Source of the DNA: a virus
Direction: 5' to 3' (one strand)
DNA: 23,845 nt
IMG/VR virus record: IMGVR_UViG_3300036770_002129
Location: 1-23,845 of that record
A model generated the notes under the pieces. That model saw only the letters and a program-made list of their open reading frames with translations, made no database searches and was not told the origin of the DNA. Both the position numbers and the translations under genes were made by a program. Below are positions 13,576 through 18,591 of the stretch, in pieces (positions within the stretch are counted from its first letter, which is position 1; every line of letters begins with the position of its first letter).

Positions 13576-13695
13576 ATTAGTTTTGCTGACTGCACTATTT
13601 GCTATGACTCATATGCTTTACTCGAGTTTACATCTTATCGTCATAGTTACTCAGGCATGATCAAGCCCATGGCTTACAATCAGCAAAACTAATGG
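13574..13695 (-). ncRNA. Inverted-repeat RNA element between tRNA-Glu and tRNA-Tyr
   Basis: A perfect 16-bp stem (13574-13589 with 13680-13695) encloses 90 nt containing a second 7-bp stem CTATGAC/GTCATAG and a short AAGCC/GGCTT hairpin. There is no convincing ORF or tRNA inside. The 5' strand of the stem includes the CCA of tRNA-Glu and the 3' strand reaches the first two bases of tRNA-Tyr. T4 also has stable non-tRNA RNAs in its tRNA cluster, which makes an RNA gene plausible. Confidence 0.5.
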
Positions 13696-13767: not shown

Positions 13768-13768
13768 A

Positions 13769-13819
13769 TGGTGTAGAGGAAGCCCCTTGGTGCGTAAACC
13801 TATCCCATCGCATCTCTAC
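13769..13819 (-). ncRNA. 51-nt tRNA-like element ending in CCA
   Basis: GTAGAG (13819-13814) pairs with CTCTAC (13778-13773), followed by A and CCA, exactly like a tRNA acceptor end. Only two short arms lie between (TGCG/CGCA and AAG/CTT), with no anticodon or T-arm. It abuts the 5' end of tRNA-Glu. It may be a tRNA remnant or a small processed RNA. Confidence 0.35.
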
Positions 13820-13951
13820 AAAACTACTCAACAAGTAGTCTCCCAACTGGTGTCATTACTGTGAGGTATAACTCACTGATAACACCATCATACTCGCCTC
13901 ATGCTCCGTATTTACCGTAGACTTAGAGAGGACTTTCAGAACAGAAACATA

Positions 13952-13980
13952 ATTCTACATCAAACAATGTTGCATGTCAA
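13952..13980 (-). promoter_or_regulatory. Sigma70-type promoter P3 inside the tRNA array
   Basis: Minus strand TTGACA (13980-13975), 17-nt spacer, TAGAAT (13957-13952), just after tRNA-Cys. Spacer and flanks closely resemble P4, so the two probably arose by duplication. Confidence 0.75.
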
Positions 13981-13988
13981 TAACTATC

Positions 13989-14063
13989 TGGAGCACAGGG
14001 TGAGAATCGAACTCACGAACATCAGTTTTGCGGACTGCTACCTTACCATTCAGTCACCTGTGC
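13989..14063 (-). tRNA. tRNA-Cys(GCA) with C33
   Basis: Acceptor GCACAGG/CCTGTGC, T-arm GTGAG-TTCGATT-CTCAC, encoded CCA. The anticodon loop reads CCGCAAA, so position 33, normally an invariant U, is C. Confidence 0.88.
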
Positions 14064-14420: not shown

Positions 14421-14449
14421 ATTATACATCAACAAATCTTGCATGTCAA
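14421..14449 (-). promoter_or_regulatory. Consensus sigma70 promoter P4 inside the tRNA array
   Basis: Minus strand TTGACA (14449-14444), 17-nt spacer, TATAAT (14426-14421): a perfect consensus, lying between tRNA-Ser(GCT) and tRNA-Leu(TAA). It gives the left part of the array transcription independent of the attenuator-like leader. Confidence 0.85.
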
Positions 14450-14939: not shown

Positions 14940-15014
14940 TGGGGTATCGTATGAGAATTGAACTCATGATGACGGAATCACAATCCGTAGTTTTACCACT
15001 AAACTAACGACACC
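14940..15014 (-). tRNA. tRNA-His(GTG)
   Basis: Acceptor GTGTCGT/ACGATAC with a G at -1 opposite C73, the tRNA-His identity pair. Anticodon arm ACGGA-TTGTGAT-TCCGT, encoded CCA. Confidence 0.95.
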
Positions 15015-15018
15015 ATTG

Positions 15019-15122
15019 ACCATATTGAAACACACTACTGAGTCAGGCGACTGTGCAGCCGAACGTGATCAGTCCTCTCCGCGGATGCTCGATGTTTTGA
15101 GAGCAGTGCGCTTCAATATGGT
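15019..15122 (-). ncRNA. Inverted-repeat RNA element between tRNA-Lys and tRNA-His
   Basis: An 11-bp perfect stem (15019-15029 with 15112-15122), extended by further pairs after a small internal loop, encloses a GC-richer 82-nt segment. Inside are GACTG/CAGTC, AGTC/GACT, CTCTC/GAGAG and the palindrome TCCGCGGA. It is neither a tRNA nor an ORF. The 5' strand of the stem includes the CCA of tRNA-Lys, the same arrangement as at 13574-13695. Confidence 0.5.
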
Positions 15123-15268: not shown

Positions 15269-15301
15269 ACAGAAACTCTAATTGTTAAAGAACTATAAAA
15301 C

Positions 15302-15335
15302 AAAAAACCCTCTGGATTTTCATCTCAGAGGGTTT
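15302..15335 (-). terminator. Intrinsic terminator in the tRNA-array leader
   Basis: A 9-bp stem (AAACCCTCT at 15335-15327 with AGAGGGTTT at 15313-15305), continued by a 3-bp inner hairpin, is followed on the minus strand by TTT-G-TTTT. It lies between promoter P5 and the first tRNA. Its 5' arm overlaps a competing upstream stem. Confidence 0.85.
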
Positions 15336-15479
15336 GGGAAGTATACAGATACTCGTCTATTTACTCGCCAAACCCCCACTATCATTTCTAATCTCATATC
15401 CAAACTGTGGGCGTGCGCATGTCCAGCCACTTGATAGTGGTAGATGCTTCGCTAACATGGATACGGATCTTAATTTCAT
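15330..15479 (-). promoter_or_regulatory. Attenuator- or riboswitch-like leader of the tRNA array
   Basis: In the minus-strand RNA, CCACTATCA (15440-15432) can pair with TGATAGTGG (15384-15376). Directly adjoining it, GGGTTTGG (15375-15368) can pair with CCAAACCC (15337-15330). The second stem uses six bases of the terminator's 5' arm, so antiterminator and terminator exclude each other. A rival hairpin CCACT-ATCA-AGTGG (15440-15427) would undo the first stem. A 40-codon ORF (15479-15357) starting almost at the transcription start could be a leader peptide or chance. Confidence 0.5.
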
Positions 15480-15489
15480 AGTAGAATGT

Positions 15490-15518
15490 ATTATTCCCTA
15501 AAAGTGATTATTTGTCAA
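15490..15518 (-). promoter_or_regulatory. Sigma70-type promoter P5 for the tRNA-array leader
   Basis: Minus strand TTGACA (15518-15513), 17-nt spacer, AATAAT (15495-15490). Predicted start near 15483. No other promoter is visible before tRNA-Gln. Confidence 0.7.
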
Positions 15519-16851: not shown

Positions 16852-17549
16852 TTAATTATCCAGTATCTTCTTCCACCGAAATGTGTATTGTTCCACCAAG
16901 ATTCGACAACCCCATTTCTATCATCAGCATTAAATTCTACTTCTTTCCAATCATACTTATGCTGCATTGTGTTTAGATCAGGGTCATCACATCTGGTGTA
17001 CTCAGCATTATTTTCTTTTAGTAGTGTTTCTATATTTGAAGAAGAAACCAATGAACCTATGTGTCCAAATGGTCCATGCATTTTTGAGGTGTATTTGTAA
17101 TTTAATATTTTATATTCTGCATCACTGTCATATTTGGTAACAGCTGTTTCATATGCGATGTTATCTGCATGTTTGATAGTTCTTATCAAATCTTGTTCCC
17201 AATAATTTAAGTTATATGAGATACCAAGATGAATGATAAGATCAAAGTGATCATCAATAGACCATTTTGTTTCTTGATTTATTTGTATTGTTTTAAACTT
17301 TGAATTTTTCTTTTTGACAATATCCAATGCTTCTTTTCTTGCATCAGAGAATGTAACATCGGAACCGAGCAGGCTAAAGTAATGTCCAACATTACCATAA
17401 CCACACCCAAGTTCCAATATCTTTTTACCTCTAAACCATTCTTTGTCAAAGAATTGTTCTATTTTCTTTACACGAAAGAATCTCCATTGATTGAACATTC
17501 CACCAAAATCACTTTCGCTGGAATCAAATAGAACATCATACGGATTCAT
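16839..17549 (-). CDS. Class I SAM-dependent methyltransferase, 236 aa
   Basis: Motif I KKILELGCGYGNVGHYFSLL (43-62) is textbook. The acidic strand-2 end follows in SDVTFSDARKE, and motif IV in FDLIIHLGISYNLNYW. The C-terminal third (GPFGHIGSLVSSSNIETLLK) is consistent with a small-molecule or sugar methyltransferase, but the substrate is unknown. TAATG-type coupling joins it to ahpD upstream. Confidence 0.8.
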   Translation of the reverse strand: MNPYDVLFDSSESDFGGMFNQWRFFRVKKIEQFFDKEWFRGKKILELGCGYGNVGHYFSLLGSDVTFSDARKEALDIVKKKNSKFKTIQINQETKWSIDDHFDLIIHLGISYNLNYWEQDLIRTIKHADNIAYETAVTKYDSDAEYKILNYKYTSKMHGPFGHIGSLVSSSNIETLLKENNAEYTRCDDPDLNTMQHKYDWKEVEFNADDRNGVVESWWNNTHFGGRRYWIIKCSK

Positions 17550-18055
17550 TACGAATTTAATACTTTAGCACAAGCGTTCATAACTGCAGCGATACGACCA
17601 ATATCACGCAATTGTTCAACAGTATAGCCCATTTTCTTTAATTCATCATAGTGTGCTTTGACACAGAAGTGACATTTACCAACAATAGATGCAGCGAGAG
17701 AATATGCTTCGAATCTTTCTTTCGTAGTTCCACCATGTGTCGCAATCGCATTCATGCGCAGTTGTGCAGGTAGTCCAGCGAGAGCAGGATCGTCTGCCAT
17801 CTCAACATACGGATACCATACGTTGTTCTGTGCCATCAAACTTGCAGCAGTCATAGCAGCATTTGCATCAGCAGGTGCATCTGCGAGTAGAACACCTAAC
17901 AGTTTACCATTGCCAGTTGCAGCCAATGCAGCGACGGCACAACCCATCGCTTCATCAGAATCAAGAGTACTACGCAAAAGGACAGCGTCAATGTTCAGCT
18001 TAGTGTCTTTTGCGTATTCTGGCAACGCTTCTTTAACAGCGTCAATAAATGCCAT
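17549..18055 (-). CDS. ahpD: AhpD-like alkylhydroperoxidase (carboxymuconolactone decarboxylase fold), 168 aa
   Basis: KCHFCVKAHYDELKKMGYTV places the redox pair C128/C131 and H135 as in AhpD, with E116 (RFEAYSL) as the proton-relay Glu. The repeat-like N-terminal half and full length of 168 aa fit the two-repeat AhpD family. In Mycobacterium, AhpD passes electrons from lipoamide (dihydrolipoyl acyltransferase/Lpd) to AhpC. Here it is coupled by a 1-nt overlap to the ahpC gene, which strongly supports the pairing. CHFC replaces the more usual CSHC. Confidence 0.85.
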   Translation of the reverse strand: MAFIDAVKEALPEYAKDTKLNIDAVLLRSTLDSDEAMGCAVAALAATGNGKLLGVLLADAPADANAAMTAASLMAQNNVWYPYVEMADDPALAGLPAQLRMNAIATHGGTTKERFEAYSLAASIVGKCHFCVKAHYDELKKMGYTVEQLRDIGRIAAVMNACAKVLNS

Positions 18056-18591
18056 TATAGAGTCTCCCCACCTACTGTGCGATTACATGCACAAAGTTCG
18101 CCAGTCTGAAGTGCATCAAGAACACGCAGAGTTTCTTCTGGACTACGACCTACGTTTAAGTTGTTTACTGTAACGTGTTGAATAACATTATCAGGATCAA
18201 CGATAAATGTAGCACGTAGTGCAGCACCAGCTGGTGCATAGAAAACACCTAGTTGCTCAATTAAAGATTTATCCCAGTCACGCTGAGTATCAGCAAACTG
18301 AATATGTCTAATCTTCGAGAGATCTTCGTGGTGTTTCTGCCATGCCAATTTACAAAATTCGTTATCTGTAGAACCAGTCAAGAGCACAGCATCACGATCT
18401 GCAAAGTCTTGGAACAGTTTATCGTAAGCAACGATTTCTGTTGGACATACGAATGTGAAGTCTTTTGGATAGTATACGATAACTTTCCACTTACCTTCGA
18501 ATGATTTCTCTGTGATGTCAAAAAACTGGTCACTACCAGGATTAACACCAGTTACTACGAATGCTTCTAATTTTTCACCAACTGTTTTCAT
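18055..18591 (-). CDS. ahpC: AhpC-type peroxiredoxin, 178 aa
   Basis: P42-T46-C49 in YPKDFTFVCPTEI is the PxxxTxxC peroxidatic motif and R126 (ALRATFIVD) the supporting arginine. C167 and C169 in GELCACNR are resolving cysteines. The three-cysteine layout matches the AhpC that works with AhpD (mycobacterial or Legionella AhpC2 type) rather than with AhpF. It would reduce H2O2, organic peroxides or peroxynitrite. It overlaps the dCMP deaminase gene by 4 nt. Full length with no defect visible. Confidence 0.92.
   Translation of the reverse strand: MKTVGEKLEAFVVTGVNPGSDQFFDITEKSFEGKWKVIVYYPKDFTFVCPTEIVAYDKLFQDFADRDAVLLTGSTDNEFCKLAWQKHHEDLSKIRHIQFADTQRDWDKSLIEQLGVFYAPAGAALRATFIVDPDNVIQHVTVNNLNVGRSPEETLRVLDALQTGELCACNRTVGGETL

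Follow-up and report, generated by a model that had tools for sequence, protein, structure and literature searches.

A conserved short reading frame, competing hairpins and an rrn-type boxA ahead of a phage tRNA array: a candidate translation-coupled attenuator

The locus and its features

The window, by which we mean the whole stretch of DNA analysed here, comprises the 23,845 bases of an IMG/VR virus record. It carries 25-26 tRNAs according to ARAGORN and Rfam, every one on the minus strand, and it also encodes a T4-RNase-H-type gene. In the annotated phage collection, no close relative of the window was found; distant matches of one window protein were to Stenotrophomonas, Pseudomonas and other phages. 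T4-like phages have clustered tRNAs and extra structured RNAs with host-type promoters, and the same organisation is seen in the window. One part of the tRNA array is preceded by a leader region, and in the order of transcription the following features were assigned:

15490..15518, minus strand: sigma70-type promoter TTGACA-17-AATAAT, 11/12 consensus, predicted transcription start site (TSS) at ~15483
15357..15479, minus strand: leader open reading frame (ORF) of 40 amino acids, MKLRSVSMLAKHLPLSSGWTCARPQFGYEIRNDSGGLASK*, with a near-leaderless ATG; conserved in homologous loci, with indels in multiples of three
15423..15446, minus strand: codons of the core peptide HLPLSSGW; clear purifying selection at the amino-acid level here and nowhere else in the peptide (unbiased set, pN/pS 0.27)
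15427..15440, minus strand: small in-ORF hairpin CCACT-ATCA-AGTGG, the tip of stem-loop 1; recurs in the folds of most relatives
15330..15375, minus strand: hairpin 2, the antiterminator candidate; GGGTTTGG (15375-15368) pairs with CCAAACCC (15337-15330), complementary arms with covariation
15302..15335, minus strand: intrinsic terminator CCCTCTGAGATGAAAATCCAGAGGG followed by T6, with CCC (15332-15330) common to hairpin 2
15280..15293, minus strand: rrn-type boxA GTTCTTTAACAATT between the terminator and tRNA-Gln, matching the boxA motif of the rrn leader in E. coli
14453..15268, minus strand: nine tRNAs (Gln, Lys, His, Phe, Ile, Met, Val, Arg(ACG), Ser(GCT)) and a 105-nt structured spacer (ARAGORN)

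The block from Gln to Ser(GCT) comprises nine tRNAs according to ARAGORN, not ten as counted in the first-pass annotation of this DNA. The same annotation had seen no other promoter ahead of these tRNAs, and indeed there is no consensus minus-strand promoter from 15490 to 14449. The block thus appears to be served by the leader promoter, a further sigma70 start not being visible before 14449.

Several further elements of the tRNA region were recorded. The next tRNA block starts with tRNA-Leu(TAA), just upstream of which a perfect 12/12 sigma70 consensus promoter is located (14421-14449, minus strand). At 13992-14063 (minus strand), Rfam detects a tRNA gene (55 bits) left uncalled by ARAGORN, and relatives have tRNA-Cys at that place. 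The spacer RNA between tRNA-Cys and tRNA-Glu (13768-13991, minus strand) has its own strong promoter, TTGACA-17-TAGAAT, and no Rfam match; its motif GAAAGTCCTCTCTAAGTC-hairpin-GCATGAGGC recurs, partly diverged, in the relatives L219, L220, L221, L003 and L008. Two spacer RNAs with long closing stems, at 15014-15118 (Lys-His) and 13576-13692 (Glu-Tyr), both on the minus strand, have no Rfam match either and are reminiscent of T4 stable RNAs C and D. L220 and L221 carry larger structured RNAs of ~340-390 nt between Glu and Tyr, and sequence similar to these comes after tRNA-Gln in L157 and L159. Matches to tRNA-Sec below threshold, located between Arg and Val or following Arg (L220:5122-5209, minus strand; L219:4142-4229, plus strand), on which ARAGORN is silent, may represent an extra tRNA with a long variable arm.

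Relatives of the leader

Relatives were gathered in three ways, namely by the neighbouring oxygenase gene, by an exact 16-mer of the peptide core and by peptide alignment. For an unbiased set, IMG/VR was scanned for a terminator with a downstream boxA-like motif using no ORF information, which yielded 63 loci. BLASTN of the leader against annotated phages gave chance matches only, and a scan across contigs of bacterial and archaeal genomes gave a single match (L216), which was spurious. Several 2OG-Fe(II) oxygenase-like genes are also present in the window, as are adjacent genes at 17549-18591 (minus strand) that read as an AhpC-type peroxiredoxin and an AhpD-type alkylhydroperoxidase; in L003, an AhpC-like gene comes after the oxygenase gene.

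The tie between leader and tRNA array proposed in the first-pass annotation turned out to be very strong, nearly all homologues with enough flanking sequence sitting before such an array. Mostly tRNA-Gln(TTG) is the first gene after the leader, 89-247 nt past the stop codon, followed by Lys, His, Phe, Ile and more. In L198 and L199, the first tRNA is tRNA-Arg(TCT) and boxA is absent. One relative, L003, is without the leader at the equivalent place, and its array is shorter (13-14 tRNAs).

Promoter and near-leaderless start

The sigma70-type promoter at 15518-15490, already noted at first pass, was confirmed, and relatives have an equivalent promoter at the same place, usually TTGACA/T-17-TATAAT or TAGAAT. 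Of 40 distinct upstream regions, 34 have their best -10 hexamer ending 6-7 nt ahead of the ATG, and for three others, the window included, this distance is 10 nt; in the window the ATG lies ~3-4 nt after the predicted TSS. No Shine-Dalgarno (SD) sequence was seen at a proper distance before the leader ATG. Since the ATG follows the -10 box by 6-10 nt, the mRNA is probably leaderless or nearly so, and its translation would be of the leaderless type. L157 and L159 have a likely promoter further upstream and a AAAGGAAG sequence ahead of the ATG. Retention of the ORF through this switch to an SD-preceded start argues that translation of the leader is selected.

The leader ORF and its peptide

The first-pass annotation had overlooked the 40-codon ORF and its near-leaderless start, together with boxA and a CATCGT-loop hairpin of the relatives. 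As would be expected of an attenuator, this ORF lies between promoter and terminator and is preserved as a reading frame. It is open in 50/50 loci of the 16-mer set in which the surrounding motif is retained (39-42 codons, one cut by a contig end; 32 distinct sequences), in the peptide set in 73/73 (two cut at contig ends; 48 distinct ORFs), and in the unbiased set an intact ORF is found directly upstream in 63/63 loci. L234 lay outside the spacing filter of the selection analysis, yet its ORF is intact. Spacing within the ORF shifts only by multiples of three (ATG to core 36, 45, 48 or 51; core to hairpin 57, 60 or 63), and the spacing from stop to terminator (24, 26-31) is not restricted in this way. 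An antisense frame, open in 19/19 representatives, was taken as a shadow frame, its ends not being conserved.

Across relatives, the peptide core follows the pattern [HQ]LPL[LNS][SC]G[WL]; two loci of the unbiased set are without the SGW string and read MKSVICLSLAKHLPLNCGW.. and ..HLPLLSGLTC... For the core (H..W), the unbiased set gives a pN/pS of 0.27, versus 0.75 in the N-terminal, 1.12 in the middle and 1.25 in the C-terminal part. The wider set gives 0.12 for the core, a value from loci partly ascertained by the core itself, and the unbiased 0.27 is therefore used. Frame and core thus matter, unlike most of the peptide, a pattern that a cis-acting leader peptide would be expected to show. 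Neither tblastn of the peptide against phages nor Pfam and PHROGs scans gave anything convincing, no known domain or annotated homologue being found, and the 50,697 annotated phage records contain no convincing homologue of the leader ORF. According to the codon table, the peptide has no run of regulatory codons for one amino acid of the kind that marks the trp/his subtype of attenuators.

Synonymous sites are constrained in the ORF (pS 0.25 in its middle), and codons rarely used in the window's genes (TCG, TCC, CTC, CGC, GCG, GGG) persist across relatives at ORF codons 3, 7, 14, 16, 24, 32 and 38. Together, these observations point to a constraint on the RNA level. In many, not all, relatives ATATCC (codons 6-7) pairs with GGATAT (codons 28-29), which accounts for the rare-codon bias only partly.

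Hairpin 2 and the terminator

The intrinsic terminator reported at first pass (CCCTCTG..CAGAGGG and T6 at 15302-15335) was confirmed and is conserved in relatives; a simple scanner did not list it, apparently owing to a loop limit of 8 nt. Its position ahead of the tRNA genes is the one predicted for an attenuator. The antiterminator stem of 8 bp proposed alongside it (15368-15375 with 15330-15337) is exact and part of a longer hairpin, hairpin 2; the stem is present in 35/35 distinct relatives, and it is also found in 33/33 distinct sequences of the unbiased set, which were collected without selecting for it and in which hairpin 2 has a median z of -4.9. The 5′ side of hairpin 2 is made up of the final ORF codons plus the stop (TAG at 15359-15357 in the window), which falls inside the hairpin in every folded case, and GGGTTT(T)GG..stop..CCAAA(A)CCC folds as a hairpin in 31/31 distinct segments. 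The outer arms are complementary in 35/35, three T being opposite three purines and four T opposite four. Inner pairs 1-6 are maintained in 28-34 of the 35, A-U/U-A, G-C/A-U and U-A/G-C exchanges occurring among them, and a single A.C, C.A or C.C mismatch in hairpin 2 is itself preserved in 33/35. Also, the codon for Gly38 is GGG in every one of the 12 representatives that have Gly at this position, as expected if the third base must pair with C, and GGG makes up only 3% of the Gly codons in the window's genes. RNAalifold on a MAFFT alignment gave the terminator alone, MAFFT having misplaced the T-run gap and the terminator being the stronger state; the pairs of hairpin 2 were therefore counted by registering from its arms.

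The CCC at the 3′ end of hairpin 2 is also the U-tract-proximal strand of the terminator stem, and the two always overlap in relatives. Losing CCC costs hairpin 2 ~9 kcal/mol and the terminator ~12, so that they exclude each other at CCC. A mutually exclusive alternative pairing, as found in attenuators, is thus present, hairpin 2 being the thermodynamically weaker state. At equilibrium in the final RNA, the terminator is favoured over hairpin 2 by ~2.9 kcal/mol, and the probability that hairpin 2 holds CCC is 0.0-0.4. Antitermination would therefore need kinetics and may be partial; since hairpin 2 is made before the terminator, the competition would be kinetic. The overlap of only 3-6 nt counts against an attenuator. 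Length covariation, inner compensatory changes and the constant CCC overlap in relatives support the terminator/antiterminator idea of the first-pass annotation.

Other parts of that folding scheme fared less well. A 9-bp stem (15376-15384 with 15432-15440) is present in the window and fully paired in 3/47 distinct relatives, 5-7 pairs being found in 29/47; the most plausible view is that coding segments happen to pair here. Covariation, which had been suggested as a check, was thus found for the 8-bp stem, in arm length and inner compensation, and the 9-bp stem is not conserved, which leaves the three-part attenuation logic unsupported in its original form. The local hairpin at 15427-15440 recurs in the folds of most relatives, with modest z-scores.

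boxA and the CATCGT-loop hairpin

TG(T/C)TCTTT(A/T)A(A/C)AATT or a close variant was read from the spacer sequences of nearly all relatives. The boxA sequence of the E. coli rrn leader is ACTGCTCTTTAACAATTTATC..; the median number of places where it was found is 7 per genome, and the example inspected is located 103 nt upstream of 16S rRNA. As in rrn operons, the phage motif lies in the RNA before an untranslated operon, and a role of NusB/S10 is putative here. The boxA of rRNA operons recruits NusB/NusE (PMC4807359). In relatives' contigs of 131-165 kb that carry the leader, one copy of the pattern precedes the array, and there is no more than one other, apparently in coding sequence. The extra matches G001:113849 and G004:22690 were set aside, with no tRNA nearby and apparently within coding sequence. 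Being downstream of the leader terminator, boxA cannot act on it.

Just after the terminator, 46/52 distinct relatives have a hairpin with the loop CATCGT, whose stems are wholly different and covary (TAGC/GCTA, TGGC/GCCA, GGG/CCC, CCTAC/GTAGG). Loop variants are CATCGA with GGAG/CTCC (L234) and TATCGT with GTTTGT/ACAAAC (L228). This hairpin usually precedes boxA; it is absent from the window and from L143.

Proposed mechanism and alternatives

We see about even chances that a translation-coupled transcription attenuator gates the phage tRNA operon and that boxA protects the transcript, which is untranslated. In such a system, the host-type sigma70 promoter would give an RNA starting ~0-4 nt before the AUG of the ~40-codon leader ORF. 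A ribosome finishing the leader would sit on the stop codon, and with a footprint of ~28 nt it should cover the 5′ arm of hairpin 2 and stop short of the terminator; CCC would be freed, the terminator would form and tRNA transcription would end. With the ribosome absent, slow or stalled upstream, the stalling possibly due to the conserved HLPL(L/N/S)SGW core, hairpin 2 would form first and delay or block the terminator, and polymerase would enter the tRNA array. There, boxA may load NusB/S10-type factors and thereby keep polymerase processive over the long untranslated RNA, its presumed target being Rho-dependent termination inside the array.

The main rival, a realistic possibility short of a probable one, is an independent small-protein gene that has a promoter and terminator of its own; the role of hairpin 2 would then be limited to stabilising the 3′ end of the mRNA or helping termination, and the tRNAs would be expressed by constant partial readthrough or from an unrecognised phage promoter. 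It gains from two observations that count against an attenuator: five relatives (L148, L157, L159, L160, L182) have an apparent promoter of their own between the terminator and tRNA-Gln and still keep the leader, and L181, where tRNA-Leu comes next, retains the ORF without hairpin 2, terminator and boxA. The preference for the terminator at equilibrium and the amino-acid selection on the core also suit a protein. However, this selection is confined to the 8-residue core, with none clear along the rest of the peptide (pN/pS 0.75-1.25), and a gene of this kind explains poorly why the ORF is bound to tRNA arrays, why GGG is favoured at the site pairing with CCC and why the terminator's own arm is exactly paired in every sequence.

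Improbable in our view is a free-standing regulatory sRNA of ~180 nt that ends at the terminator, with the ORF as a secondary feature, an option raised in the first-pass annotation. The leader has a defined promoter and terminator, it folds better than shuffles (z -5.3 with the terminator, -6.1 without), and the constrained synonymous sites in the middle of the ORF would fit a structured RNA. Against this, the indels in multiples of three and the ORF kept intact throughout the unbiased set, with start, stop, frame and core peptide conserved, make an sRNA unlikely as the sole product, and some relatives have a weak stem-loop 1 or none (z ~0 in L183 and L211). A riboswitch that controls the array by binding a ligand or tRNA (T-box-like) would share the terminator/antiterminator geometry and is very improbable, as no Rfam family, T-box and riboswitches included, reaches threshold in the leader and the supposed aptamer region is occupied by a conserved reading frame, in which the 9-bp stem is not maintained; the metabolite riboswitch suggested earlier is thereby unsupported, and leader-peptide translation is the more likely input.

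Relation to known systems and biological meaning

The leader resembles trp/his-type and tnaC attenuators in its short ORF at the transcript start, the stop codon in the antiterminator region, the strand shared by antiterminator and terminator, and the conserved Trp-containing peptide core, tnaC having a conserved nascent-peptide Trp. Unlike trp/his-type attenuators, it would control phage tRNA genes, it has no single-amino-acid codon run, its mRNA is near-leaderless, the overlap is short, and there is no classical 1:2 pause hairpin shielding the antiterminator. The motif TG(T/C)TCTTT(A/T)A(A/C)AATT before a long untranslated stable-RNA operon is like the boxA of rrn leaders (NusB/S10/SuhB). 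In rrn leaders boxB precedes boxA, and in most phage relatives, too, a hairpin stands ahead of boxA. Unlike rrn boxA, the phage motif belongs to a tRNA operon and lies downstream of an intrinsic terminator, and NusB binding is putative. We know of no unit of leader ORF, terminator and boxA in T4-like tRNA clusters. In a limited set of literature, nothing relevant on phage tRNA attenuation or boxA was found; the one hit, PMC9025141, uses the unrelated BOXA1R primer. The parts are thus of known kinds, and their combination before a phage tRNA operon, present in dozens of contigs, is not described in that limited literature.

When and why phages express their tRNAs is an old question, and phage tRNAs have been tied to escape from tRNA-cleaving host defences (PMC10264068, PMC11555353). 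We put forward as a tentative and rather doubtful reading that this phage lineage senses translational failure, e.g. tRNA depletion by host anticodon nucleases, via a near-leaderless, possibly arrest-type leader peptide, and switches on its tRNA operon by attenuation followed by processive transcription through an rrn-type boxA. The peptide core is a candidate motif for arrest or pausing of the ribosome, and boxA suggests a phage tRNA operon bearing an rRNA-operon signal. If true, the leader-translation attenuator would couple tRNA expression to the state of translation and would represent a translation-state sensor for phage tRNA supply.
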